From an uncultured Chlorobiaceae bacterium (GTDB lineage: Bacteria > Bacteroidota > Chlorobiia > Chlorobiales > Chlorobiaceae), in NCBI GenBank assembly GCA_903824295.1, contig CAIJWE010000025.1, forward strand, positions 1 through 41,245: a DNA stretch of 41,245 bases, written 5' to 3'. The notes beneath the pieces are model-generated. The model made no database searches. It was not told the DNA's origin and was given only the letters and a program-made list of their open reading frames with translations. Every line of letters begins with the position of its first letter. Position 1 is the first letter of the stretch. This document shows, one piece after another, positions 25,824 to 40,371 of the stretch. The position numbers and the translations under genes are program-made.

Positions 25824-26690
25824 ATGCCTCAGCCCGGAACACACCATTTTATCGAACTGGCTTTTCAAATAGCCCCTGATCTCCACGAGCTCTACATCGG
25901 CCTGCTTGCCTCCGAAGGTATCGACTCCTTTCTCGAAGAGGATCACCAGCTCCTCGCCTATCTGCCCGAAACCGAATGGAACGAAGAGAAAAAGCAGAGC
26001 CTCCACACCATGCTGCAGGAAAGGGTGGGTACGCTTCCCGACTACACCGCAACCTTCATCGGCGACCGGAACTGGAACGCCGATTGGGAGGCAACCCTGC
26101 AACCCATCGAAATCTCCAACCGCCTCCTCATTATCCAAAAAAGCAGTGAGATAACGCCAAAACCCGGCCAGATCGTCATCGAAATCAACCCAAAAATGTC
26201 GTTCGGCACCGGATACCACGCCACAACACGCCTGATGCTGCGCCAAATGGAGCGTCTCGACCTGAAAGACAAAAAAATGATGGACATCGGCACCGGCACC
26301 GGCGTCCTTGCCATAGCCGCCCGCAAGCTCGGCAACAACCGCCCCATCCTCGCCTTCGACAACAACTCCTGGGCCGCCGAAAACGCCATCGAAAACATTG
26401 CCGAAAACCACGCCGAAGAGATCAAAGTCGAACTCCTCGATGCCGAAGAGGATCTTGTGGCTAATCTCAAAGAGGGCTACGATCTCATTCTGGCCAACAT
26501 CAACAAAAACGTCATCGACCGCATTCTGCCCGTCATCCGCAAATACGCCCCTGCGGCGCCGGTGTTGCTCTCAGGCATTCTTGTCTATGACGAGCCGTGG
26601 CTGAAGAAGCTGCTCAAACGGCTCGGCTACACTGCGGATAAAACCATCTATGAAGATGAATGGCTCTCAAGCTTTATCAAACCACTATGA
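25824..26690 (+). CDS. prmA: Ribosomal protein L11 methyltransferase PrmA
   Basis: PrmA trimethylates lysines of ribosomal protein L11 using AdoMet. The 288-residue protein has an N-terminal substrate-recognition domain (residues 1-95), then MSFGTGYHATTRLML and the AdoMet site MDIGTGTGVLAIAARKLG, followed by ILANINKNVI and LLSGIL. The open frame extends to 25455 inside the nlpC gene, but the family N-terminus (HHFIELAFQIAPDLHELYIGLLASEGIDSF) starts at ATG 25824. It is the last gene of G+C-richer housekeeping DNA before the A+T-rich cassette. Confidence 0.94.
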   Translation: MPQPGTHHFIELAFQIAPDLHELYIGLLASEGIDSFLEEDHQLLAYLPETEWNEEKKQSLHTMLQERVGTLPDYTATFIGDRNWNADWEATLQPIEISNRLLIIQKSSEITPKPGQIVIEINPKMSFGTGYHATTRLMLRQMERLDLKDKKMMDIGTGTGVLAIAARKLGNNRPILAFDNNSWAAENAIENIAENHAEEIKVELLDAEEDLVANLKEGYDLILANINKNVIDRILPVIRKYAPAAPVLLSGILVYDEPWLKKLLKRLGYTADKTIYEDEWLSSFIKPL

Positions 26691-26812
26691 CACATTGAAA
26701 TCTCAAGGAAGAAGGAGATGATATCGGACAATCGGTAGAGAGTAGGGGTGGCTATGATAATTTATATTATTCTTCCTTTTAGGATAAAACACTCTTATTC
26801 AAAACAACAACA

Positions 26813-27454
26813 TTAACGCATGAATATTTTCCACACATAGACGAAATTATTCAACCAATGAGCTAATGCACCATCAATACCGCTTCTCATCGACCAAATA
26901 ATTAATATCAAATGAAACAATATAAACGCCACAATAAAAAGGCACGAGAAAAATATCCCGTAATACTGAATATCTGGTTGGAATCTACCAATTTGTTTTT
27001 TCATTGCAATTGCATGAAATCCAAACGTTAGCCCTATGAGCAAATCAATAATCCAAAGAGCTTTAATCGTTATCCAAAGTCGGAGAATTAATAAGGCAAA
27101 GGTATAAACAGGCAAACAGTAAGGTGCAAGTAAAATAAACGGATTGTTCGTCATTTTGCCACTGTGAGAAATAGCACCGCCTTCACCGTTTGTGGCATGA
27201 AATAAATGTATCTTTTGGAAAAAAGCTAATACGACAATAGTGTGCGTGAGCTCATGGGTAAAGGTCTCCAAAAAATCCAGATTTTTTTGGAGCAAACCTT
27301 TCAATACTATATATGCTACAAAGCCAATAATAAACCACAAATAAGCTTTTGGGTGCATTACTGCCCAACTGATTGCATTATATAGGCAATAAATGCTGAA
27401 TAGCGAAAACAGGGTTATAAGTGGATATGATATAATTTTTAAGAATTTGAACAT
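26813..27454 (-). CDS. Membrane HExxH (M50-like) metalloprotease-like protein
   Basis: The 213-residue polytopic protein has about five or six hydrophobic segments and the zinc-protease motif H67-E68-L-T-H71 in FTHELTHTIVVLAFF, placed inside or next to a TM helix as in M50-type intramembrane proteases. A downstream segment (SGKMTNNPFILLAPYCLP) sits where M50 proteins carry their further metal or structural region, but a canonical NPDG motif is absent. It is the last gene of the cassette, starting 9 nt after the PBP-like gene. It may process a membrane protein of the same operon, such as the single-TM 528-aa protein; that is inference. Base composition is A+T-rich like the rest of the cassette. 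Confidence 0.7.
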   Translation of the reverse strand: MFKFLKIISYPLITLFSLFSIYCLYNAISWAVMHPKAYLWFIIGFVAYIVLKGLLQKNLDFLETFTHELTHTIVVLAFFQKIHLFHATNGEGGAISHSGKMTNNPFILLAPYCLPVYTFALLILRLWITIKALWIIDLLIGLTFGFHAIAMKKQIGRFQPDIQYYGIFFSCLFIVAFILFHLILIIWSMRSGIDGALAHWLNNFVYVWKIFMR

Positions 27455-27463
27455 GATGCCTCG

Positions 27464-30127
27464 TCATTGAAAAAGCTTGTCAGTATAGAAAAGGATTTTT
27501 TCAAAAACATTATTTTTGTTGGATATAAAATTACGAGCAGAACTAGAATTGATATTGCCTATAGCACTGCCTTTTTCTGTCCAATATGTATGCACAATGC
27601 GTACAACTGCTGAAATACCGGAATTATGTGCAACTCTATCACTTCCATTTCTAATTCTGTTATATTGTATAGTATTCATAAGCGAGAATGAATACAAACC
27701 CATATCATATTCAACATTTTTTTTGTTGTCGCTGTTTATATTTCGTTGGGCATTTTCAATATCAGGCAAAGAAAATTCATCAGGCGTCCCAGTTTTTCCC
27801 AAAATTACTAAATTGCGACCAATAGCAGTAACACGAGATTGAGACGGGCCGAGCAAACTTGCATTACCATTTGACGACTGTGCATCGTGAAATGATTTCA
27901 TAAAATCGTTCCATACATCATTTGCCCTCCTTGTGCCGTGTCGATAATCTCTGCCGTCCCGATCTATTTTTTCAGTAAGCAGTTGTTCGTAAGTTGGATT
28001 GGGATTACGAATAAAGGACAATCTAACAGGATATTTTGTGTTCATTCTTGCCCAAGCTTCTGCAAGCTTTAACGGAGACCAACTGTTATCGCCTTGACCC
28101 AATACCCACGAAATCACTTTTGTGCGAAATGATTCTCCATTGTTGTGCCACGACCAATAATTCATATTGGTATATTCAGGCGATATATCAGGAAACGAAA
28201 TGCTATCTTCTTTGCTAAATTGATTTTTATTAAACATTCGCCAAACATAAATTTCAGGAACAATATGCATATCTTGGGTGTTTTGCCTTGCTTCGTTTGA
28301 ATTGATATTGTACAAAATATCAAGCATTTTTGCGAACTGACTATTGTGTATAGGATAATCACTGTTTATTTTAGTGTCTGCCGTTCTGGGGAGCAATAAA
28401 GTTGCAGGAAATTTGTGTGGATTTATTGTCATAAAACTTGTTGGCAATTCATTTCGATCGTTTGGATTTGTAAAAGCGTACATTGCCAGCATAATAGGGT
28501 AGACATCATTTGAAGACGCAAAATATTGGGTCATTGTCATTCCGTTATTCCACTGTGCTTTAATGTAATTCGACAAACTGAAAATGGGACAACCGAGCAA
28601 AGTTACATTCCAACGGTCGCCGTTAGCAACAGGCAGTGGTTGCCACATTGCAGGATTAGTTGTTAAATTAAGTAAGTCTGGATAAACCTGTACTGCTGCC
28701 AAAGTCATAAGCGGCTTAAAGCATGAACCGATAAAACGCCGTTGAGTATTTGAATTTTTCCGATCTAATTGATAGGCTGGATTGATTCTTAATGTTGAAT
28801 ACGAAGGTGCTGCCAAAATTTCACCTGTAGCCGAATTTATTAATGAAATAGACATTTCAACCTTTTCACCTTCGTGTAACTTAACACCACTAATCAAAAC
28901 AGAGTCAACATATTTTTTTAATTCGCCTTCTAAGGTTTTAGACAAATAGGGGTCTATTGATAGATTAATATTATCAGGCGATGTTTCGTTCATTTTCTGA
29001 TTAAAAAGATCTACGATTTTCTGTGTAAAATTATCGGTATAAAGCGTATCGACCTGTGTTCTCATTTTCCCCTTATTTGTATCAAGAGAATATGAAAGCG
29101 TATTCATTGGATTGTTGCGAAAAAAATAAAATTCGGCTTTCTTGTTTTTTATACCTTCATCAGAAACTACTACTCTCAGAACATTTTCGTTAAATCTAAA
29201 AGTACACCCGACACGAGAAAGACTTGCATTAGGAGAGCCTACCATTTTTTTTGTACCACAATAAATATCTAAATTTGTAGGCATATCAAAAACCAAACTG
29301 TCTCTTTGTTTTATAGTGTCCGTAAAAATTTGTACCGTAAAAGATTTATTGTCATCACCGTCAACACTAAATCTTATAAACCTTCCTTTTTCATAACATT
29401 CTTTGTAGTAATCGTATAAATCAATTGGCAAATCGCTGTGCTGTAAATAATTATTTTTTAACTTTACGATATAATTTTCCTGGCGTTGGACAAAAATGCT
29501 ATCCTGTCGCTTAACTGGCAAAACCGAACTTCCATATACGACAAACAATGAATTAGTTGAATCGATTTTTCCATACGAATGGCCAACAATAGTTCCAAGC
29601 CAAGGCTTATTGTTGAATTTTATTGTATACAATTCAGGAATCATTTTGATATATTCAATCTCAGCAACTCCCTTATAAATTTTAATTTTCAAATTAAAAT
29701 ACTTTTTGTAAAGGTTTTGATTTTGCTGTTTGAGAATATTTTGCAACTCGCTACTAAGATAAAAATTTTTAAGATTTGTATTTTTTATCCTATTCTCTTT
29801 AATACCGACTAAGCGAATATCGCCAACCAAGCACTCGCCTTCTTTAACATCATCGGGAAGAGCAAATATAAGTGCAGGATAACGATAATTTAATTGATCT
29901 AATGGTGTTAAATTCTTTTTTGTATCAATATTTTCTATTAATAGCAATTCTGTAAACAAAGCATCTGCTTTGCCAATAAAACCTTTGCCATCCCCGGCAA
30001 TTGGCTTATAACTATCTTTACTGCTGTTGCTAAAAAGAGAATAGCCAAATACGCAACTAACAATCACAACTACAATTACGATTATCGCCTGGAGCATATT
30101 TTTATGATTTGCATTAAATACCGCCAT
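27464..30127 (-). CDS. Membrane-anchored penicillin-binding-protein-like transpeptidase
   Basis: The 887-residue protein has an N-terminal TM anchor (about residues 11-33), a long extracytoplasmic region (35-430) that I do not recognise, and a C-terminal transpeptidase domain. All three active-site motifs of penicillin-binding proteins are in order: S468-C-F-K471 (in RRFIGSCFKPLMTLAAV), S538-S-N540 (in FASSNDVYPIM) and K778-T-G780 (in VILGKTGTPDEF). The entry strand SLINSATGEILAAPSYS is also typical of PBPs. The triad is intact, so an active D,D-transpeptidase is likely. The spacing to KTG is longer than in most class B PBPs. A SEDS-like gene lies in the same cassette, matching the known SEDS/class B PBP partnership. 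The M50-like gene follows after 9 nt. Confidence 0.8.
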   Translation of the reverse strand: MAVFNANHKNMLQAIIVIVVVIVSCVFGYSLFSNSSKDSYKPIAGDGKGFIGKADALFTELLLIENIDTKKNLTPLDQLNYRYPALIFALPDDVKEGECLVGDIRLVGIKENRIKNTNLKNFYLSSELQNILKQQNQNLYKKYFNLKIKIYKGVAEIEYIKMIPELYTIKFNNKPWLGTIVGHSYGKIDSTNSLFVVYGSSVLPVKRQDSIFVQRQENYIVKLKNNYLQHSDLPIDLYDYYKECYEKGRFIRFSVDGDDNKSFTVQIFTDTIKQRDSLVFDMPTNLDIYCGTKKMVGSPNASLSRVGCTFRFNENVLRVVVSDEGIKNKKAEFYFFRNNPMNTLSYSLDTNKGKMRTQVDTLYTDNFTQKIVDLFNQKMNETSPDNINLSIDPYLSKTLEGELKKYVDSVLISGVKLHEGEKVEMSISLINSATGEILAAPSYSTLRINPAYQLDRKNSNTQRRFIGSCFKPLMTLAAVQVYPDLLNLTTNPAMWQPLPVANGDRWNVTLLGCPIFSLSNYIKAQWNNGMTMTQYFASSNDVYPIMLAMYAFTNPNDRNELPTSFMTINPHKFPATLLLPRTADTKINSDYPIHNSQFAKMLDILYNINSNEARQNTQDMHIVPEIYVWRMFNKNQFSKEDSISFPDISPEYTNMNYWSWHNNGESFRTKVISWVLGQGDNSWSPLKLAEAWARMNTKYPVRLSFIRNPNPTYEQLLTEKIDRDGRDYRHGTRRANDVWNDFMKSFHDAQSSNGNASLLGPSQSRVTAIGRNLVILGKTGTPDEFSLPDIENAQRNINSDNKKNVEYDMGLYSFSLMNTIQYNRIRNGSDRVAHNSGISAVVRIVHTYWTEKGSAIGNINSSSARNFISNKNNVFEKILFYTDKLFQ

Positions 30128-30308
30128 ACTATTCTACCCCTTGATTTACAGAGTTAATAAGCGTTAAACTACAAGTTTTTCCGTGTTAACGTGTCGGTTT
30201 TGCTTGATTTCCTATCGTTCAACTAGTCAGTTACTTAGGGATTAACTCTTGTTTAGAGCTTACGATTAGGAATCTCGTTATAAAATTCACCTCCTGTAAC
30301 TTGCCCAT
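30128..30308 (-). other. Intergenic 181 bp in the cassette: no translatable gene, structured element
   Basis: This is the only large gap within the cassette. It contains a 100-bp segment (30150-30249) bounded by perfect 9-bp inverted repeats, AGAGTTAAT and ATTAACTCT. On the minus strand a Shine-Dalgarno-like AGGAGGTGAAT (around 30290) is not followed by a start codon. Instead it lies within a 30-codon open stretch (30253-30345) in another frame, overlapping the end of the 528-aa gene. It may hold a promoter or a mobile/structural element. No U-tract terminator is visible. Confidence 0.5.
30150..30249. repeat. 100-bp segment flanked by perfect 9-bp inverted repeats
   Basis: AGAGTTAAT at 30150-30158 and ATTAACTCT at 30241-30249 are exact reverse complements. 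Inside are partly symmetric blocks (CGTTAA and TTAACG near the left arm). It could be a folded RNA, a MITE-like remnant or an attC-like recombination site; none of these is demonstrated. Confidence 0.5.
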
Positions 30309-31895
30309 CTATTGTTTTTGTTTTGAACGTACGAATATAGTCGTATCATTGATTTTAAAAGAAATAAGCTCCTTATTTAGAATGTCTAACACTTGAAACC
30401 ATTCAGGATTTATTGTAATCGACATCGTTCGCCCATCTGGTACAGATACAGGTACAGATGCATTTGCTGGTGCTGAAGGAGCCTCTACTAACGGTGTTAT
30501 ATGGGCTGGCGCATTTATAAGTGAACCAGTTTTATAGCCACCTCCAAAACAAATAATCAATGCTGCTATTACAAGAAACGCTGTAATATTGTATTTATTT
30601 ACATAGTCAAAAGTTTTTTTGAAAATGCTTGGCATTGTTATATCATTTTTAAAAAACTCTTTATGTACTTTGCGAGATAACTGCTTGATTTTATGTTCAC
30701 AAACAGAAAATTCAATTCCAACATTTTTAAAAAATATCAATAATTCGCGCAGTTTTTTCTCTTTTTCTTTTTCAGGAATAAAATCTATCAATTTTTTCAC
30801 GTCAATATCTTGACCAATCAACAATCTGTTGTCTGGCAACAATTTTGTATCTTTAATATCTGGAATATCAAGGCTTTTAATTGTCTCCGTATCAGGCATT
30901 TGTTTTGTAATTTTCCAAATAAAAACAACTTCACCTATATTTTGACAGAATGGGTAAAGCTCTGCAATGCTATTTGACAAATCAATGTTGATAAATGGAC
31001 TTTTTCCACCAAGATAGTTCAAAAATTTTTGAAAGTCGGCAGATGTAATAGGCTGTAAATTTTGAAGGATTGTTGCAAAAGATAAATCGGTATCGAAAAA
31101 ATCTATTGCGCCATTCATCAATCTTGATGCGCTTCTTATATATACTTCCGATTGATCGAGATAATCAGTTTCAGACTTATGACTTAAATCACTCCATTCA
31201 ATTTGTTTTATTTTTCCAAATCCGAAGTCTTTTATATTACCGTGATAAATAATAATCAATTTATCATACAGAAATTCTTTGTAGTAATTTTCATCTATCG
31301 ACAATGCAAACGAAGCCAAAGGGCGCAACTCCTCGGGCAACATGTCTATAGCTGCAAAAAGCGTTTTTGCAACTTCGTTTTCCAAAACTCCATTTTCTTT
31401 CCATTCGAAATCATTATCTATACGAATTAACAGATACTCTAAATTAGCAATCGCATGCATAATTTGTTCGGCAAGATTGAATGCTTTGCTTCTGTCGTAT
31501 CCTTTAGTTTCTTTTAGCTGTAATAAATTGTCTAACTGTCCAATTTTTTTGTCACGATACTTTTCCATTTTCGGCAAACTGTTTATAATTTCACCGATTT
31601 TGAAATTGCATTCACGAATATTATCTGCATCAATGTCGTAAAATATTCGCGTATCGTACATTCTACCGGGTATACCATTGTGTTGACCCTGAATATGTAT
31701 AACTGATAGACAATTAAGGCTTGGCTCACGATATGCAAAAAGCGAGGCATATATTGGCGACAGTTTGTTTTGTCCGTGCTTGTCTTCAAGCAATTCAGAA
31801 ACGTGTGGGCGTATAGTTGTGGTCGCAATTTCCAAATAACCTATTGCTCCCTCTAATGCGCCCTTTATTGCTTTTTTTATTAGTATATTTTTCAT
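30309..31895 (-). CDS. Unknown 528-residue protein with one TM segment near the C-terminus
   Basis: The large N-terminal part (residues 1-430) is soluble and mixed alpha/beta, with no domain I recognise. One hydrophobic segment lies at about 436-453 (ITAFLVIAALIICFGGGY). It is followed by an Ala/Pro/Val-rich stretch (APAHITPLVEAPSAPANASVPV) and a short beta-type tail that would be extracytoplasmic if the N-terminus is cytoplasmic. This bitopic layout could pass a signal across the membrane, linking the GTPase-like side to the wall-enzyme side. It starts 7 nt after the 213-aa gene and precedes the PBP-like gene. Its last codons overlap a 30-codon open stretch in another frame (30253-30345). 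Confidence 0.7.
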   Translation of the reverse strand: MKNILIKKAIKGALEGAIGYLEIATTTIRPHVSELLEDKHGQNKLSPIYASLFAYREPSLNCLSVIHIQGQHNGIPGRMYDTRIFYDIDADNIRECNFKIGEIINSLPKMEKYRDKKIGQLDNLLQLKETKGYDRSKAFNLAEQIMHAIANLEYLLIRIDNDFEWKENGVLENEVAKTLFAAIDMLPEELRPLASFALSIDENYYKEFLYDKLIIIYHGNIKDFGFGKIKQIEWSDLSHKSETDYLDQSEVYIRSASRLMNGAIDFFDTDLSFATILQNLQPITSADFQKFLNYLGGKSPFINIDLSNSIAELYPFCQNIGEVVFIWKITKQMPDTETIKSLDIPDIKDTKLLPDNRLLIGQDIDVKKLIDFIPEKEKEKKLRELLIFFKNVGIEFSVCEHKIKQLSRKVHKEFFKNDITMPSIFKKTFDYVNKYNITAFLVIAALIICFGGGYKTGSLINAPAHITPLVEAPSAPANASVPVSVPDGRTMSITINPEWFQVLDILNKELISFKINDTTIFVRSKQKQ

Positions 31896-31902
31896 GATCG
31901 TA

Positions 31903-32544
31903 TTAAATTTTTAATAGCCAATTTTCTATATTAGAGTTATTCATATATGCTGGAACTCGTATCTTGTATTTACTAAATAAATCAACAACAAGATTAAAAG
32001 TCCCAAATGGCAAACGTTGATCTATATTAAGATTGTCAAATTTCTGACGATGAATGCTGTTATTTTTATGTATAGTCAATTGGGTTCCGTCTATTGGATA
32101 AGCTGTAAAATATATATGCGGAATAATGATATTTGTATATACTGTAGGCGTATTTGTATTTACTGATGGCTTAAACCTTTCATGGCCAAATACAGTATAG
32201 CTTTGCAATTCACTAACTCTGCTCGCTAAAAGTACATCAAGTCCTTGATTATTATTGTCTCGAGGAACTGCAAATTCACTTTCTTGTTTCAATATATCAT
32301 CTAAATATACAGAAGAGTTGTCAATGTGAATGAAGTTTGGATCTAAATTACTTTCATCAAAAAGAATCCAGTTTGATGCTTTACTGGCACCTTCAAAGAA
32401 TTCATCAAATTTATCAACAAACCTCGCACCAAATTTCTTATATATTGCTAATAGGACGAGATAGTATACTTTAGTCGACATAGTCTTAATGTCGGTGACA
32501 TTAAAAGTATTATATAATCCAATGAATTTATCAGGATTCAACAT
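31903..32544 (-). CDS. Unknown 213-residue cassette protein
   Basis: A soluble protein with no signal peptide or TM segment: MLNPDKFIGLYNTFNVTDIKTMSTKVYYLVLLAIYKKFGARFVDKF, then a mid-region rich in Asn/Asp. I do not recognise the family and see no catalytic motif. It lies between the GTPase-like gene (9-nt gap upstream) and the 528-aa gene (7-nt gap downstream), both on the same strand. It is therefore surely part of the transcript and a candidate cytoplasmic partner of the GTPase-like protein. Confidence 0.7.
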   Translation of the reverse strand: MLNPDKFIGLYNTFNVTDIKTMSTKVYYLVLLAIYKKFGARFVDKFDEFFEGASKASNWILFDESNLDPNFIHIDNSSVYLDDILKQESEFAVPRDNNNQGLDVLLASRVSELQSYTVFGHERFKPSVNTNTPTVYTNIIIPHIYFTAYPIDGTQLTIHKNNSIHRQKFDNLNIDQRLPFGTFNLVVDLFSKYKIRVPAYMNNSNIENWLLKI

Positions 32545-32553
32545 TGCATCTAA

Positions 32554-34290
32554 TCATTTAAATACTACATATAAATTAGGACACGTTCCAGTTTCTTTTT
32601 CAAAAAAGGTTTTGACACCACGGAGACATGATGTATAGTTTTTCTGTTCTGTATTAACATTATAGCTTATCCCTCCAGCATCTATTGGCAATGCAAGCAA
32701 TTCACATAAAATTATATCAGTACTTTTATCACAAAATACATATGCATAGAAATTTTGCCAAAATGTAGTAGAAATATTTTTTAAATTAGCATACCCATCT
32801 ATCTCTTCTACTATCTGTTTTAATACATTCTTTAAATTATCTGTATCATATTGTTCAAAGTTTTTTACAACATCTTTTCCGCTGACATATTTGTATGCTT
32901 TAAGATTGTGAATATTATTTTCATCGACATTACTGACCTCACGCATTAAGACTCGTTTTGTGCTTTTCGTATTCCCCTTATAAAGAGATAATTGTCTCCC
33001 CTTTTCACTATCCATTTCCATTAAGAAGTTAATATTATCAATATCCAAAGAAATACCAAGCCATTTTATAAGCCTTTTTGTCAATTTGTTAGGAAGTTTA
33101 GTTAACATTATCTTCCACCTTTTATGAGTGTATTTCTCTTTAAGGCAGGACTTTAAATTCGTATAAATACCAGTAATATTTTCAGCCTCGTGAAATGCCT
33201 CACCCGGTATATCCATAAACTCAATAATTCTTTCATTTCCTTCAATTGTTAATGAACCTTTATAGTGGTGTGTTGATTTTGTAAGATTAGTTATATCTGT
33301 AGGGTCAATATTTTTATTTCCAACAATACTGTTCAAATAACTTTGAACTTGCGGATAACCATAATAAGGTTTCGTATTTACATTTATTCCCATAATGGTT
33401 AATGCTCTGAAAATATCAGAAATACAATGCGATTTCCCATTATCTTGAGTTCCTACAACAGCAATTTTTATTGGTTTTTTTTTCATATCAGTATTGTATT
33501 TTATGCCATTATTCTTTGTAATATAATGATACAACTTATTACTTGTTATTGATATTTCGGCATTTTTATCTTTATAAATATGATTTATGCAATAAATCAA
33601 ACAATCAATGTAACCAAAATTTATATCTGATTTATATAAACAGAAAACCTTTTTTCGAAGAATAAGACGTTTTTTTTGTGGAGTTATAATGCCCTGTGTA
33701 TCCGTGTAAGGAAACAAATATCCAGATTGTAAAAGGCTTTTCAATTCTTCTGAGAATCCTTCTGCTGTTCCATTTATAAGATCTATGTGCTGCGCAACTG
33801 CTAATCTTGCGTATGTATTGAAATCAACAGGATATTTCTTTTCAAACCCAAAATGAGGGTCTTCATCAAAAGCAGCAAACAAAATTGTTTTTTCGCTATC
33901 AATTTGCTTTATGTTATATGATATCCTGTTTATTTTCCATGTTTCGGGTAAGTTTTGTAAATCAATACACAAAACAAAAATATCGGCCGAATCGCACCAG
34001 ATTTTTATACTCTCCGAAATACTATTGTTATCCTGATATTCAAAAATTTCCGCTGGTGGCGCTGTATTATCAAAAGTAATTTGTCGTTTAGGCAAATCTA
34101 TTCGACCACCTCCGAGATAAAATGATTTTTCTGTTCCTGCCACTTTTTTACGCACAAAGCCCCATCGCTTATCAAAAACTTTCTTTTGCGTAAGTAAATT
34201 CTCAAAGTGCACAATAATCCTGTTTGTTTCGTTTTTGTGTTCAAAAAACGAGAACAGGCATATACGGCCATTCGGGATTTTTTGGTTCAT
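32554..34290 (-). CDS. P-loop GTPase-like protein of the cassette
   Basis: The 578-residue soluble protein has a Walker A motif G280-TQDNG-K286-S287 (KIAVVGTQDNGKSHCISDIF), and 80 residues later a switch II/Walker B-like D360-I-P-G363-E (IIEFMDIPGEAF). This is the G1/G3 arrangement of TRAFAC-type GTPases; DxPGE forms are seen in GTPases of bacterial conflict and signalling operons. No clear G4 N/TKxD was found. Residues 1-250 form a separate domain without a P-loop (VLCIDLQNL, TILFAAFDEDPHFG), perhaps a degenerate relative. The frame extends to 34380, but ATG 34290 overlaps the stop of the upstream gene by 4 nt (ATGA) and is taken as the start. Confidence 0.75.
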   Translation of the reverse strand: MNQKIPNGRICLFSFFEHKNETNRIIVHFENLLTQKKVFDKRWGFVRKKVAGTEKSFYLGGGRIDLPKRQITFDNTAPPAEIFEYQDNNSISESIKIWCDSADIFVLCIDLQNLPETWKINRISYNIKQIDSEKTILFAAFDEDPHFGFEKKYPVDFNTYARLAVAQHIDLINGTAEGFSEELKSLLQSGYLFPYTDTQGIITPQKKRLILRKKVFCLYKSDINFGYIDCLIYCINHIYKDKNAEISITSNKLYHYITKNNGIKYNTDMKKKPIKIAVVGTQDNGKSHCISDIFRALTIMGINVNTKPYYGYPQVQSYLNSIVGNKNIDPTDITNLTKSTHHYKGSLTIEGNERIIEFMDIPGEAFHEAENITGIYTNLKSCLKEKYTHKRWKIMLTKLPNKLTKRLIKWLGISLDIDNINFLMEMDSEKGRQLSLYKGNTKSTKRVLMREVSNVDENNIHNLKAYKYVSGKDVVKNFEQYDTDNLKNVLKQIVEEIDGYANLKNISTTFWQNFYAYVFCDKSTDIILCELLALPIDAGGISYNVNTEQKNYTSCLRGVKTFFEKETGTCPNLYVVFK

Positions 34291-35672
34291 TGTCTTTTTG
34301 TACTGCTTATTGCTGGAAAAGCGACCAATCCTGCCAAAAGTATAGGGGCTAAATCTATCAAAATACTTAAGAAAAAGCATCGGATACTTTCCTTAAACAG
34401 CAGTTCATGGACTTCTTTTTCGCCCTCTGATCTTAAGTTATTGTGGTTTTCTGTGTATTTTCCGGACAACAATTCAAACAAATCATTAAGTGCTTTATTT
34501 TGGTCTATTGTTTTTGTATTTATGATAGTATGATACTTTATTACTGTTATATTTTTTTGTGAAAGAGAATCTAATTTGCCATATAACTCACCCTCTACTT
34601 TTACAATATTGCTTTTTATATTTCGTTGCATTACTTTATTACCAGCTATTTTCTCCAAATCAAATCTTAGAATCAAAGAATCCAATGTATGTAGTAAACT
34701 ATCAGCTGAAAAAATTGCGTCCTTTTTTTGGATAATAGGCGGTGTTTGTATTGTATCATCTAAATCTTCAATTTTTTTATCAAGTTCTTTTATATTTTTA
34801 TTTACCTGATTAAATACCGGATTTGTGTAACGAAAATTTTTTTCGTCATATTTATATCTGGTAATTTGACTGCTATTTAACTTCTCCTGTAATTCACTTT
34901 TCTCTGTTTTATATTCATTGATTTTATTTATATTTGGTTGATTTACTTGTCGAAGTGAATCTAATTTTGTGTTTATTTTTTGTTTGTCCGTGCTGATGTT
35001 TGGCGTTATGTATTTGCTTAATTCTTCGCTTGTTCTTACTGCTTGTGCCATTATTTGCGTTTCGCCAAAGTTGCTGTAAATATGAAAATAGTTAAAAGTT
35101 AATGCTGCAATATCAAACAATATGTAAAGCCCGATACAACATACCAAAAATAGAATTTTTTTGTCGCCTTGTATATAGGGCATTTGGTGTGTAAGCCAGC
35201 CTGTTACCCAAAAGAGAGTAACAATGACAATAACTGACAGAAACCAACAGAACACACCGTCAAGCCCGTTTTCATTCATCCACAAAAAAGATATACTTTC
35301 ATGCATAATGTAGCAGGCAACAGCCAAAAATGAAATAGTTAATATCCAACGCAGATAAATCCAAACCGACATTTCACGCATTTTTTGTCCTGTACTTTTC
35401 CATCTCTCTTTCCAGCTTTTTGGCGTATCGTATTTGTAATCATAATTTACAGTTTCAATGCAAATTTCGTCTTCCGCCTCAAACTTTTTATAAAAGAATG
35501 AGGTCACCCAACCAATAAAACAGCTTATTAACAACCACAAAAACCAGTTACTATTAAAATTGCGGCAAAAAATTCCGAAAACAACTATATACAGCACAAA
35601 CGTTATTAGCAGACCATTGTTTAGGAAGAGTTTACCAAGTTTGTTTATCGCTTTTTTCTTTTCTTCTGTCAT
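34287..35672 (-). CDS. Polytopic membrane protein with extended coiled coil, unknown family
   Basis: The 461-residue protein has five predicted TM segments in its first half (about 20-37, 42-62, 103-122, 139-160, 171-192), a long charged helical region at about 200-425 (KINTKLDSLRQVNQ, KTEKSELQEKLNSSQ, KNIKELDKKIEDLDD) that should form a coiled coil, and a last TM at about 429-455. I do not recognise the family. Its ATG overlaps the SEDS-like stop (ATGA) and its stop overlaps the GTPase-like start (ATGA), so it is coupled to both and may be a membrane scaffold or sensor between them. Confidence 0.75.
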   Translation of the reverse strand: MTEEKKKAINKLGKLFLNNGLLITFVLYIVVFGIFCRNFNSNWFLWLLISCFIGWVTSFFYKKFEAEDEICIETVNYDYKYDTPKSWKERWKSTGQKMREMSVWIYLRWILTISFLAVACYIMHESISFLWMNENGLDGVFCWFLSVIVIVTLFWVTGWLTHQMPYIQGDKKILFLVCCIGLYILFDIAALTFNYFHIYSNFGETQIMAQAVRTSEELSKYITPNISTDKQKINTKLDSLRQVNQPNINKINEYKTEKSELQEKLNSSQITRYKYDEKNFRYTNPVFNQVNKNIKELDKKIEDLDDTIQTPPIIQKKDAIFSADSLLHTLDSLILRFDLEKIAGNKVMQRNIKSNIVKVEGELYGKLDSLSQKNITVIKYHTIINTKTIDQNKALNDLFELLSGKYTENHNNLRSEGEKEVHELLFKESIRCFFLSILIDLAPILLAGLVAFPAISSTKRQ

Positions 35673-38578
35673 CTTTTATCTTGATTATAAGGATTATTCA
35701 AAGTACACATATATGCAAATAACACAATAATTTCGAATGCTTCCCCTACTGCATCAACGCCAAAGCCTGGTATTAGCCGTCCTGTGAATGGGACTATATC
35801 ATAATAGGAAGCGAATAGAAAAAGTGTAACACCAATCCACAAGTTGCAAGCAAGCAGTTGCCCAATTAGTTGACGATTTATTGTGAATTCTTGAGGATTT
35901 TGTCTCCATGCATCGCCAATGCTGAAAAAATAAACATAAAAGCCCAATGCCAAAACACCAAACAACAAGCCAATCCAACCCCAGCCACGCATCGAGCCAA
36001 GATATACGCCAGGAATGGCAAAATCATTCAATATTACAGGTGACTGGCCCGCAGAAACAAGTTGGTGAAAATTGTTTTCTTCGCTGTAAATATCATAATC
36101 ATTACCTCTACCAGCTTCTACCTTCTCAGCATAATGAAGCATCACTTCCATCCATTGCATATCACTTTCGGAATAGAGATAACCCGCATTTTTCACATCG
36201 CCTGGTGAAATATAATTTTGTATACGGCGAGACACCCTACTATAGTTAATATTTTCTGTATTAGAATATATATTTGAAACCTCCCAAACTCCAATCCCAA
36301 GAACAAGAATGCAAACAATCAAACTCAAACTAAAATTCCAGTTCATAATTCGAATATTGTTTTTTCCAGCACCCGATATTACTTTAGAAGAACAGAATAT
36401 CAAAAACATCCAAGTCGCAGCGATTCCAAATACATATACAAAAAAACCAAAATCAGAAAAAACCCCTATTAAAACCCAAATACAAACAAAAGCCAAATTT
36501 CCAATAATCCACAGCCAAAGTTTGTGGGTCAACAAATTAGTCTTATACCATTCTTTATTTTTCGAAATACCATAAAATGCTTTATGTTCAATGTTTTCGT
36601 ACGCTGGATTAGTTTGGCAATTAATTTTCCAACAAAATATATTTTCCCCCATATACCGATCAGTTGGTGTAGGTATCGTAGATGTAAGTATTTCCATTAA
36701 TTGTCTTAATACAATAAGCAAAATCAGCACGGCGGCTGCCGTGCCGTAATGTCCAAGAAACGATATAAAAATTGCTATTAAAATGATTATTCCGATTTTA
36801 GTCGGCCATTTCAAATTGGCAATACTCGGAAATTTCTGCTCAATCCAAATAATCGTTTTTTCTATAAAATTAAGATTTAATATCAATATCAAAAAAAATA
36901 ACAAACCACCAACCAACTCAAAAACATAAAAGTGATTGTCCTTCATTGAATTACTAAAAGGTTTAAGAAACGATATCTCTTCTTTTAAATAACTGTTCCA
37001 AATCGGCGACACAAAACTTTCTGTTATGCCATTATACGCTTTTACACAAATAATAATAATAAAAATAGAAATAATTGATTTCCATATCCAGTTATAACTT
37101 ATTTTAAGTTGGATATATTTTTTGGTTTTTGAAAATAATCCTTTTTTTATTGTAATATATTTAAGACTGGCATTGTTTAAAAACGACCTGTTGATCACAA
37201 TTATTAACAAAAACATTGTAAAAAGTGAGAACAAAGTTGTAAGATACGCAACAGGATAAATATTTTCAAAATATGGATATGTAAAAGTCAATTTCTCGGC
37301 AATCAATAATTTTTGATTTAAAAAAAACCAAAACAAAGTAAACATACCCAAGATATACCAACGCATATCTTGAATTTTTTCAGCTTGTGAGCCTCCTCCT
37401 GATTCAGGAAATGACAAAAACAAAATCACCCCCAAAACCAACCATACAACTGCCAATACCCAATGTTTCGACCAATAAAAAGCTTTATTTAAAACCCGTG
37501 ATTTGTATGTGATTCCGCCCGCTACAAGTTGTTGATTTACTGCATTAATTTTTGGAATAAAGCTTCCTGAAGTCGATAACAGTACTGTATCTTCTTTTTC
37601 TGATTCCTGGAAAATCAGATTATTGTTTTTAACTCCAGAAAGTTCACAAACATTTCCTGAAAGGGCATTAGAAAATGCAGGAATATAAAAATCGGTAGGC
37701 AAAGGGTAATATGATTTCAGCATTTGCTTAAGATACACGCCTGTTTTAGAACTATCACCTCTTGCTTTTGTTATTCCGTCAATTGGAATCGTGGTGGTTA
37801 TAGCTTTGGGGAAGGTTACTGAAAAATGTGAATCATTTCTTTTTATGAGAATATGACCCGCACCCCAATCTGTAAATACTTGCACTGGTTTTGCAAAATA
37901 TGTTCTAATGCTGTCTGATAAATTTTTGTTATTCTCTTGTTTTTTTATGCTCCAACTTTTCATTTTAAAAAACTGGATTTTTAATTCTGAGCCTTGAGAT
38001 AACGTCTTAGAATAGCAATAACCAACATCATTTATTCTTGTGGATTTGTCGAGGATTACAAGCCTGTATTCGCCATTTTTCTTATGAATAAACGAGTTGA
38101 ATTCAATTTCGCCATTATTTACTGAATTAAGAAGTTTAAGAGTTAAGCGGTCAGCAAATAAATCTTTGAGCATATAGTAACCATCATCAAAATCTTTTAA
38201 TCTTCTTAAAATATAATCACCAGTAACTCGAATATTAAAAATGGTAATTATGCTGTTTTTTCCTATTTCGTAAAGATTGATATTTTCGTTATTGATAAAA
38301 TAATACAAACAACTATCTGTATTGTTGATTTTGTATGAAAAGGCTCCTTTATCATACGATACTGTCATATACTTTTCAGGTATACCTTTAAAGCACACAT
38401 CGGAGTTCTCGCCAATGGTTAAATCATTGCTATTGGGCAAATCAAATTGTGTAATTGAGAAATACAAACGATCATTCGTGGCATTTATATATCCGAACCA
38501 TACAATACTGATTGTAGCTAAAATAGTTGCAACCGTCATACCAATAAACCCGTTTTGGAATGGGAATTTGAATTTCAT
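35669..38578 (-). CDS. Divergent SEDS (FtsW/RodA)-like polytopic protein with large extracytoplasmic domain
   Basis: The 969-residue protein starts with a TM segment (about 10-31), then has a roughly 340-residue non-membrane, probably extracytoplasmic region, then about a dozen TM segments from residue 373 to the end. The C-terminal half resembles SEDS peptidoglycan glycosyltransferases: FLGHYGTAAAVLILLIVL, then LNDFAIPGVYLGSMRGWGWIGLLFG, where D852 would match the catalytic Asp of the DFIF...EElGfiG loop, and P930-FTGRLIPGFGVD, equivalent to the PvTGlPLPF motif. Similarity is motif-level and the protein is more than twice normal SEDS length. The PBP-like partner in the same cassette supports the call. 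An ATGA overlap joins it to a 36-codon ORF upstream. Confidence 0.68.
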   Translation of the reverse strand: MKFKFPFQNGFIGMTVATILATISIVWFGYINATNDRLYFSITQFDLPNSNDLTIGENSDVCFKGIPEKYMTVSYDKGAFSYKINNTDSCLYYFINNENINLYEIGKNSIITIFNIRVTGDYILRRLKDFDDGYYMLKDLFADRLTLKLLNSVNNGEIEFNSFIHKKNGEYRLVILDKSTRINDVGYCYSKTLSQGSELKIQFFKMKSWSIKKQENNKNLSDSIRTYFAKPVQVFTDWGAGHILIKRNDSHFSVTFPKAITTTIPIDGITKARGDSSKTGVYLKQMLKSYYPLPTDFYIPAFSNALSGNVCELSGVKNNNLIFQESEKEDTVLLSTSGSFIPKINAVNQQLVAGGITYKSRVLNKAFYWSKHWVLAVVWLVLGVILFLSFPESGGGSQAEKIQDMRWYILGMFTLFWFFLNQKLLIAEKLTFTYPYFENIYPVAYLTTLFSLFTMFLLIIVINRSFLNNASLKYITIKKGLFSKTKKYIQLKISYNWIWKSIISIFIIIICVKAYNGITESFVSPIWNSYLKEEISFLKPFSNSMKDNHFYVFELVGGLLFFLILILNLNFIEKTIIWIEQKFPSIANLKWPTKIGIIILIAIFISFLGHYGTAAAVLILLIVLRQLMEILTSTIPTPTDRYMGENIFCWKINCQTNPAYENIEHKAFYGISKNKEWYKTNLLTHKLWLWIIGNLAFVCIWVLIGVFSDFGFFVYVFGIAATWMFLIFCSSKVISGAGKNNIRIMNWNFSLSLIVCILVLGIGVWEVSNIYSNTENINYSRVSRRIQNYISPGDVKNAGYLYSESDMQWMEVMLHYAEKVEAGRGNDYDIYSEENNFHQLVSAGQSPVILNDFAIPGVYLGSMRGWGWIGLLFGVLALGFYVYFFSIGDAWRQNPQEFTINRQLIGQLLACNLWIGVTLFLFASYYDIVPFTGRLIPGFGVDAVGEAFEIIVLFAYMCTLNNPYNQDKR

Positions 38579-38685
38579 TCTTTATTCTCAATTATAAGAT
38601 TCAGAAAGATTGCGTAGGCCCTGGATAAACGCATGAGGTATCTGTTTGCTGCTTCAGAGGTTTTTGCATTGGGTCGCAGTGGCAT
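38575..38685 (-). CDS. Small 36-codon ORF coupled to the SEDS-like gene
   Basis: ATG 38685 opens MPLRPNAKTSEAANRYLMRLS... and ends in a TGA that overlaps the ATG of the SEDS-like gene (ATGA at 38575-38578). The open frame continues upstream to a stop just before a CAA codon, adding about 13 residues without another ATG. It may be a translated leader that couples ribosomes to the SEDS-like start, or the tail of a truncated gene carried into the island. No similarity recognised. Confidence 0.4.
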   Translation of the reverse strand: MPLRPNAKTSEAANRYLMRLSRAYAIFLNLIIENKE

Positions 38686-38734
38686 CAGCAAAGTTGCATT
38701 GGCAAAAGGTGTATGTAGCCATTGTCAAATCTTT

Positions 38735-38744
38735 AGTCGCGACT
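38735..38744. promoter_or_regulatory. Palindrome AGTCGCGACT upstream of the cassette
   Basis: A perfect 10-bp palindrome followed by TAA lies 50 bp before the small leader ORF. A related palindrome sharing the GACTTAA core is at 38828-38839. The pair could be operator half-sites for a repressor of the cassette; no regulator gene is seen in the window. Confidence 0.3.
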
Positions 38745-38827
38745 TAATATCGCCATATTACGTCGCAACATATTCTCTGAACAACTGTACTCAATAACAA
38801 AATAAATACACATAAAATATATAATGC

Positions 38828-38839
38828 CGACTTAAGTCG
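38828..38839. promoter_or_regulatory. Palindrome CGACTTAAGTCG upstream of the cassette
   Basis: A perfect 12-bp palindrome lies immediately upstream (on the minus strand) of the TATATATTTTATG stretch, where an operator overlapping a promoter could sit. It shares the GACTTAA core with the palindrome at 38735-38744. Confidence 0.35.
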
Positions 38840-38964
38840 ACTACACGGAATACACTAAAACAAGACGAATAATGAAGCGTTACGATAAAAAAAGCTTTGA
38901 ATCGGCGGACTTTGGGTGGGTGTATGTGGCATTTTTGTATATATAATTTGCAATTACTGACCGC

Positions 38965-39073
38965 CATCACGTACTACAAATAACTCACTCTCAATGTATT
39001 CAACATTTTCAACTATATAAACGATTAGTGTAAATTTTTATTAAAAATCACCGAAAAAGATCAGTTTTACAGC
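38965..39073. repeat. Dispersed repeat, copy A (upstream of ppx)
   Basis: A 109-bp stretch matches 40707-40814 in the same orientation. A 23-bp core is identical (38992-39014, starting CAATGTATTCAACATTTTC), with further matches on both sides (TACAAATAACT before it; GTAAATT, TTAAAATCA, AAAAAG and TTTAC after it). It carries no transposase and lies in non-coding DNA. Confidence 0.75.
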
Positions 39074-39429
39074 ATAGCTACCAGTCTGTTATTGATCGAA
39101 CTTTGTGTATCTGTTGTGCTGCGCACCTGGCAATCAGACTCATGATAAGCTCACAGCGGCATTCCTCACTTTCCAAAATCTCACTTTGCACAACATCACG
39201 TTGAGTGAATACTCTCAAAACCCATATATTTACCATATCTTAACGGAACCAAAATTTTACGTACGAGTTGACCCCTGACACGCAGGTATCTGTTGGCTGA
39301 TTTATCGCCAACAGAGCCCGCATACATCGGCAAATTGGATATGGTTTTGCTTCTGTCAATGTTGCACCAGCAACCTGAACAAGAACTTTTTCGGGAGGTA
39401 GCGCTTCTCGACAATAATAACGCACTCAA

Positions 39430-40371
39430 ATGAGTACAAGAGTTTCATGTATCGACATCGGCACCAACACCGCCCTGCTGCTCATTGCCGACCTTGATCC
39501 GGCAGCGGGCACTATCCTGCCGGTTTACCACAAGCAGACCATTGTTCGGCTGGGCAAAAATGTGGATGCCGCCAAAACCATTGACGCGCAAGGGTTGCAG
39601 CGCCTCATCGACTGCATGATTGACTATCGCCAGCTCAGCGATGAGCACGAGGCCGACACCATCATTGCCGCAGGCACCAGCGCCCTGAGAGATGCCAAAA
39701 ACCGCACGGAGGTAATCGAGGCGGTTGAGCGTGCTGCCGCGATAACCATTGAGTGTATCTCCGGTAAAGAGGAGGCTGACCTCACCTTCAGCGGCGCTGT
39801 CGCCGGTATGAGCGATATCCCCGAACTCTTTACCGTCATCGACATCGGCGGCGGCAGTACGGAGATCTCCATGGGATCACCCGGCGCCATCACGGAGAGC
39901 GTCAGCCTTGACATCGGTTCGGTGAGGCTCACGGAGCGCTTTTTCACCACACTGCCCCCGTCGACAAGTGAAATTGATGCTGCCAAAAGCTGCATCGACC
40001 AGCTCCTCACAGCTAACATCATTCCCTTTTTTGCTTCCAGAGAGCACGTCTACGGCGTTGCCGGCACTATCACCACCATCGCCCAGGTTGATCAGGGGCT
40101 GAAACATTTCGACGCCCTGAAGGTGCACAACTACCCCCTCACCTACGAGGAGGTGCACTCCTTTCTCGACCGTCTCAAAACGAGCACCCTTGAGCAAATC
40201 ATCGAGCTTGGCATCCCCGAAGGAAGGGCCGACGTCATCACCATGGGAATGCTCATCCTGCACCAATTCATGCGCCTGCTTGGTGTCGGCGAGATCCGCG
40301 TCAGCATTCAGGGGCTGCGCTTCGGCCTTGCCCAGAGAGAGCTGCTTCGTCTCCAGAAAAACAACGACTAA
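39430..40371 (+). CDS. ppx: Exopolyphosphatase / Ppx-GppA phosphatase
   Basis: The 313-residue actin-like-fold protein starts MSTRVSCIDIGTNTALLLIADL, with the phosphate-1 motif DIGTNT, and continues with AAGTSALRDAKNR, ISGKEEADLTFSGA and the phosphate-2 motif VIDIGGGSTEIS, plus VYGVAGTITTIAQV. Such enzymes hydrolyse polyphosphate or (p)ppGpp-type guanosine pentaphosphate. The length corresponds to the short two-domain form, lacking the C-terminal HD-like domains of E. coli Ppx. ATG 39430 is fixed by an in-frame stop shortly upstream. Base composition returns to that of the housekeeping region, so the A+T-rich cassette ends before it. It is bracketed by two copies of a dispersed repeat. Confidence 0.93.
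   Translation: MSTRVSCIDIGTNTALLLIADLDPAAGTILPVYHKQTIVRLGKNVDAAKTIDAQGLQRLIDCMIDYRQLSDEHEADTIIAAGTSALRDAKNRTEVIEAVERAAAITIECISGKEEADLTFSGAVAGMSDIPELFTVIDIGGGSTEISMGSPGAITESVSLDIGSVRLTERFFTTLPPSTSEIDAAKSCIDQLLTANIIPFFASREHVYGVAGTITTIAQVDQGLKHFDALKVHNYPLTYEEVHSFLDRLKTSTLEQIIELGIPEGRADVITMGMLILHQFMRLLGVGEIRVSIQGLRFGLAQRELLRLQKNND

Follow-up and report, generated by a model that had tools for sequence, protein, structure and literature searches.

Gene content and insertion site of the cassette

The window analysed here is the whole stretch of 41,245 nucleotides (contig CAIJWE010000025.1) from an uncultured Chlorobiaceae bacterium, whose genome assembly comprises 2.85 Mb in 131 contigs. Its placement among the green sulfur bacteria agrees with the structure of the family and with a protein encoded in a genome of the same genus, which resembles a solved cytochrome c recognized as the reaction-centre cytochrome of these bacteria. 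Its minus strand carries, between positions 26813 and 38578, a cassette of seven large open reading frames (ORFs), A to G, which probably encodes an accessory peptidoglycan synthase made of a SEDS-like membrane protein and a class-B-like penicillin-binding protein (PBP) and gated by a GTPase. All seven ORFs were found at or near the coordinates of a first-pass annotation, which had described large genes on one strand, joined by ATGA overlaps and unlike their flanks in base composition. The overlaps between adjacent genes are genuine, and the cassette is A+T-rich, with a G+C content (GC) of 30–34% per gene versus approximately 50–55% in the flanks.

In the direction of transcription, the cassette begins with A (35669–38578, 969 amino acids), a SEDS-like membrane protein, followed by B (34287–35672), a membrane protein of 461 amino acids with a long coiled-coil region and six predicted transmembrane (TM) helices. 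C (32554–34290) encodes a P-loop GTPase-like protein that is truncated by an in-frame TGA, and D (31903–32544, 213 amino acids) holds the C-terminal domain that C lacks. These are followed by E (30309–31895), a predicted cytosolic regulator-like protein of 528 amino acids with one C-terminal TM helix, F (27464–30127), a class-B-like PBP transpeptidase of 887 amino acids with one N-terminal TM helix, and G (26813–27454), an M50B-like membrane metalloprotease of 213 amino acids. A small ORF of 36 amino acids on the same strand (38575–38685), which overlaps the start of A and had also been listed in the first-pass annotation, found no independent support and is doubtful.

The cassette sits between prmA and ppx, two genes that abut in relatives (with a 4-nt overlap, for example, in locus L104). 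Comparison of the site, with blastn of the flanks against loci L101 and L104, delimits an inserted segment of 26684–38714: similarity on the prmA side stops at about 26683–26690 and restarts at about 38714. The earlier proposal that the cassette was acquired as a unit is thus supported by the empty prmA/ppx site in relatives. The junction is also interrupted in two of the closest relatives. Genome G058 contains 17 kb at this position (L101 1516–17471), with RHS-repeat proteins (PF05593, 1.6e-26) and small A+T-rich genes, and the assembly of G066 breaks at the junction, its ppx side carrying RHS-like sequence. Window positions 38714–39440 resemble the ppx-side end of the RHS island (approximately 89% over a stretch including ppx). 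The variable cargo and the shared island end indicate that the junction is a hot spot and make a chimeric contig unlikely. Directly after prmA, L101 (1055–1100) and L102 (1571–1616) carry 46 bp that look like the interior of ppx, possibly a trace of insertion.

Relatives and co-inheritance of the gene set

Single-sequence searches recovered no relatives of A, B, C, E or F in plasmids, of E in phages, of F in genome contigs, or of A or F in the order and phylum samples. Relatives were obtained by a degenerate-motif scan of 84,980 genomes, in which a natural first row, made of parts of F and A, headed a set of invented variants that served purely to give patterns around motifs expected to be conserved. 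The scan yielded 41 loci, all of which a tblastn search using the natural row confirmed; the E-values of this step refer to the candidates only, and all later results rest on natural sequences alone. Homologues of C, E, B and G were found in those same loci by phmmer and by hidden Markov model (HMM) iteration, and their presence beside the matches removes the doubt over the 41 loci.

The 41 relatives come chiefly from rumen and other gut Bacteroidales (among them rumen Prevotellaceae and Muribaculaceae), with one from Chitinophagaceae (L053) and one from an alphaproteobacterial metagenome-assembled genome (MAG; L046). The cassette family is rare. Among 98 genomes of the order, no real homologue of A was found save in the window's own genome, and viral contigs contained nothing with the degenerate patterns and nothing with the natural F alignment.

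The conserved core has the order A-[B]-C-E-F, with optional genes for a GH25 muramidase and an M50 protease. A is present in all 41 loci and F in 35 of them, or in 36 when the window is counted; in the six loci without F (L013, L029, L030, L033, L045 and L050), contig ends are close by. Two GTPase genes, tandem or paired, are found in 18 loci. B occurs in seven (L024, L027, L029, L040, L041, L046 and L053), which constitute the subtype of the window, and two of these, L046 and L053, have the gene order F-A-B-x-x-E. In L017, L038 and L044, E and F are fused, with exactly one TM helix separating the E portion from the PBP. Extra GTPase-like genes, for which DO-GTPase1 is the best match, follow F in a second subtype (L014, L015, L017 and others); in L014 (10134–16212) and similar loci (u1, u4 and u5), the PBP gene is followed by a TM GTPase, a second GTPase and two unknown proteins. 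L020 encodes a GH25 muramidase (PF01183, 2.4e-40) that has a TM helix at its N terminus, and the family to which it belongs is found directly 3' of F in 12 loci.

A, C, E and F were shown to evolve together as a conserved, co-inherited set: their pairwise identities correlate with Mantel r of 0.90–0.97 (0 of 2000 permutations). The co-occurrence outside this strain that the first-pass annotation had envisaged is therefore borne out, since the gene set recurs in about 40 other genomes and co-evolves.

The cassette GC of the rumen loci is close to that of their flanks. In contrast, A of L013, a Bacteroidales MAG, has a GC of 0.345 within flanks of 0.461, and the window A is sister to it in the tree (support 1.0); the GC difference suggests that the A+T-rich lineage was probably imported into the L013 host too. 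Recurrence of the operon with host-like GC in rumen Prevotellaceae and Muribaculaceae, together with the co-evolution of its proteins, would fit a housekeeping-like morphogenesis module that might, for example, give gut Bacteroidales a particular shape or surface structure and would have reached Chlorobium by accident. This explanation is unlikely, given the patchy presence of the operon, the signs of transfer, and the finding that the A profile matched only one of 345 evenly drawn Bacteroidota genomes, that of the window itself.

Protein A and its predicted partners

The predicted layout of A consists of an N-terminal TM helix, an extracytoplasmic beta-rich domain (approximately residues 37–363), about 12 TM helices and a large loop (approximately residues 771–867). 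The homologues in L046 (11353–13860) and L053 (9428–12034) start with lipoprotein-like signals (LIQSC and LYSC, respectively), suggesting a location of the N-terminal beta domain outside the cytoplasm. AlphaFold2 models were obtained for the full-length protein (mean predicted local distance difference test, pLDDT, 75; predicted TM-score, pTM, 0.81) and for the membrane half (pLDDT 74, pTM 0.82). When the membrane half was compared with 350,542 PDB chains by Foldseek, FtsW (8p1u_A) ranked first with a probability of 0.90, a second FtsW entry (8bh1_A) third (0.77) and RodA (8tj3_B) sixth (0.25). Three SEDS entries within the top six of so many chains are hard to explain by anything but a likeness to SEDS proteins.

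Four motifs are found in order in A: G-N-F-x-T-A, Y779-x-R781-x-x-R784-R785, N851-D852 and P930-F-T-G933, and residues R781, R785, N851, D852, P930, T932 and G933 are invariant in 41 rows. Matched by eye, these correspond to the P-D-x-G-T region of SEDS proteins and to Y242-R243-x-x-R246, D297 and P368-x-T-G371 of FtsW. Changes in FtsW at R243, R246, D297 and G371 (Y242 is also listed) are reported to lead to loss of function (PMC8765783). The S-Y-G-G that follows P-x-T-G in SEDS proteins is not conserved in A, which has P-G-F-G-V-D-A-V-G-E instead. A also gave a weak hit against a cytochrome c of green sulfur bacteria, which was rejected as a chance match between membrane helices.

Several results count against the assignment of A to the SEDS fold, and with it against the proposed synthase. 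None of the 41 A members matches the Pfam SEDS family (PF01098); an hhalign comparison of A with FtsW/RodA scored 26.4, compared with a mean of 24.4 and a maximum of 38.4 for block-shuffled profiles; and no match was obtained in a profile search of the PDB. No SEDS protein was among the 50 Foldseek matches listed for the full-length model, which were mostly chance-level hits to ion-channel-like beta and helical structures, and the SEDS matches of the membrane half had non-significant E-values of 0.57–2.6, with a TM-score of 0.33 normalized by target. The first-pass description of A as SEDS-like thus stands in respect of the leading PDB fold matches, but not at profile level. A could alternatively be another multi-pass protein of GT-C or transport type (a Wzy/WaaL-like polymerase or ligase, or a flippase), with F cross-linking or anchoring a different polymer, as the missing profile-level match, the non-significant Foldseek E-values and the replaced S-Y-G-G would allow. 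This is improbable, and the least probable of the alternatives considered here, because FtsW and RodA are the best PDB matches, the four motif matches occur in order, and a class-B PBP is usually partnered by a SEDS protein. A SEDS-like nature of A is well supported, if short of proof, and the SEDS fold is a candidate for its membrane half.

F (TRANSPEPTIDASE) is a predicted class-B-like PBP transpeptidase, in agreement with the first-pass annotation. The Pfam transpeptidase family PF00905 matches 29 of the 32 F members (best E-value 1.4e-6), that of L037 above the curated cut-off, while the window F alone scores below it (E-value 0.032); a profile search of the PDB with F gave no match. The catalytic motifs are S468-x-x-K471, S539-x-D541 and K778-T-G-T, in which S468, K471, S539, D541, K778, T779, G780 and T781 are invariant in 32 sequences. 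F has a single TM helix at residues 14–32, and a class A glycosyltransferase domain is not among its Pfam matches.

The start of C is probably at 34290 (578 amino acids), as the first-pass annotation had implied from the ATGA overlap with the stop codon of B, and not at the ORF caller's 34380 (608 amino acids). Numbered from the 34380 start, C contains a P-loop, GTQDNGKS, at residues 310–317 and a Walker B motif, D-I-P-G-E, at residues 390–394. The P-loop is conserved in its relatives, and D/N-x-P-G-E, with a Glu after Walker B, is present in all 29 rows counted. The most frequent Pfam match of C is DO-GTPase2 (11 of 33 members, best E-value 1.3e-4), although all scores listed for C relatives against Pfam DO-GTPase1 and DO-GTPase2 fall below the 27-bit cut-off. 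An hhalign comparison of C with GTPases that adjoin true GAP1-N1 genes (L056 and L057) gave a probability of 87 and an E-value of 4.5e-6 over 95 columns, and a profile search of the PDB retrieved GTPases of the EngA/Der kind, with YcjX at chance level. C is thus predicted to be a P-loop GTPase-like switch, closest to the DO-GTPase families. In L056 (1389–2540), a gene adjoining the GAP1-N1 system encodes a long unbroken run of glutamates.

C and D form one protein of 825–832 amino acids in L024, L029, L040 and L041, to which D was aligned. Both ORFs are present in the window, as previously described, but they represent a single gene split by the TGA at 32554–32556. D lies in the frame of C, behind TGA-TTA-GAT-GCA (the TGA and three codons), and the position of the TGA is occupied by Gly in relatives (F-K-G-x-D). 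Recoding of the TGA as Gly was rejected, since TGA is the stop codon of A, B and F. Strain-specific decay, an assembly error and re-initiation are candidate explanations. The in-frame TGA breaks the GTPase gene, so the window copy may not work and may be decaying, which speaks against a functional synthase in this strain. The cassette as a whole could then be a decaying passenger, non-functional here; this would be compatible with the proposed synthase for the family. Such decay is possible, if on the unlikely side: the other genes are open, the catalytic residues of F and the motifs of A and G are intact, re-initiation at an ATG four codons on could yield D, and the TGA could be an error of a fragmented assembly.

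The N-terminal domain of E shows a weak similarity to GAP1-N (hhalign E-value 0.013), with none of 100 column shuffles scoring as high; Pfam GAP1-N1 and GAP1-N2 gave no match among 31 E members. The best match of the E profile in the PDB, 7nmi_B (2.2e-4), covers its central part and was discounted as spurious. Residues 363–446 of E match the PHROG family phrog_21426 (function unknown) with an E-value of 1.3e-5. G is a multi-TM protein with an HExxH motif (HELTH, residues 67–71). The window protein matches PF13398 below the cut-off (E-value 0.005), while its homologue in L047 passes it (27.3 versus 26 bits). The P-loop GTPase-like and M50-like proteins were both correctly recognized in the first-pass annotation.

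Proposed function and comparison with known systems

SEDS/PBP pairs belong to the essential core machinery of bacteria and are targeted by antibiotics. Canonical FtsW/RodA-type genes are also present in the genome of the window and in all eight relatives' genomes checked (only one was found in G399). The cassette is therefore best read as an accessory SEDS/class-B-PBP peptidoglycan synthase that is gated by a GTPase switch and stands apart from the division and elongation machines, with a probability of roughly 0.6. A would use lipid II to polymerise glycan, which F would cross-link, while the TRAFAC-type GTPase C, often in two copies, would gate both from the cytoplasm. The single-span E could pass the switch across the membrane to F, and hence to A, with B as a scaffold of the complex. 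The optional GH25 muramidase may open the old wall (sacculus), and the optional M50 protease may cut membrane partners for switching, as release or shut-off. The likely use would be wall building or repair under envelope attack or damage. We infer the enzymatic activity of A, the gating by GTP and the trigger, as well as a biological role in stress, conflict or defence. Further points weigh against this reading: GH25 is absent from the window cassette, and G homologues were recognized in two relatives alone (L047 and L052, after F).

Envelope damage or attack is the preferred guess for the trigger, given that DO-GTPase systems have been predicted to act in conflict (PMC7159879) and that the Chlorobium site elsewhere holds RHS proteins. 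The same observations bear on a GTPase-centric conflict or defence system, in which the GTPases and the GAP1-like protein would sense an invader and trigger wall remodelling, or lysis of the infected cell, with SEDS, PBP and GH25 as effectors. The GTPases are closest to DO-GTPases and often tandem or paired, the GTPase-E order resembles DO-GTPase-GAP1 (PMC7159879) with the weak similarity of E to GAP1-N, and RHS-repeat proteins occupy the same junction in the two closest relatives. However, the core genes are constant, no GASH, EAD, TIR or nuclease domain was recognized, a PADLOC scan gave one chance-level match and no other, and the agreement of cassette and host GC in the rumen suggests long residence. 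Such a system is accordingly rather unlikely, if less so than a morphogenesis module.

The kinds of components are known, but no account of this operon or of the combination turned up in searches of the open-access literature, and there is a realistic chance of a new system class. Tentatively, and with odds well short of even, it may be an undescribed class: a dedicated, horizontally mobile SEDS/PBP synthase under the control of a TRAFAC GTPase switch, equipped with a muramidase and a membrane protease of its own, for envelope repair or defence against phage, contact-dependent toxins or predators. If true, a mobile GTPase-coupled SEDS/PBP pair would mean that a switchable module can take over wall synthesis. 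It would also provide a testable relative of GTPase-centric systems with an assayable enzymatic output (lipid II polymerisation and penicillin binding), and the E-F fusions would let one see directly how a regulator in the cytosol might act on a transpeptidase in the periplasm.

Oversized SEDS proteins (about 1221–1357 amino acids) also occur in other Bacteroidota (L094 8558–12229, L095 7335–11000 and L096 7537–11604). They resemble A in being large, and the L096 copy is linked to signalling by adjacent PP2C-like and kinase-like genes; unlike A, they are clear PF01098 members, and they are unrelated to it by the HMMs built here. With RodA-PBP2 and FtsW-FtsI, the cassette shares the combination of a multi-TM SEDS-like protein and a single-TM transpeptidase, and the Y-R-x-x-R-like, N-D and P-x-T-G motifs of A; the second motif of F, S-x-D, is one that we take to be PBP2-like. 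It differs in that A, at approximately 970 amino acids, carries a large N-terminal domain outside the cytoplasm and escapes detection with PF01098, and in that the genes are unlinked to mre, mur and fts genes and tied to GTPases instead.

The DO-GTPase/GAP1 systems are predicted GTPase-centric conflict systems with variable effectors (Kaur et al. 2020, PMC7159879). The cassette has in common with them a TRAFAC-like P-loop GTPase with a Glu after Walker B (D-x-P-G-E), often in two copies, a regulator gene after the GTPase, and membrane association. The link of E to GAP1-N is no more than suggestive, no gathering-level Pfam match was seen among the scores listed, no GASH or FNIII domain was recognized, and the variable effectors are replaced in the cassette by a constant SEDS/PBP pair.

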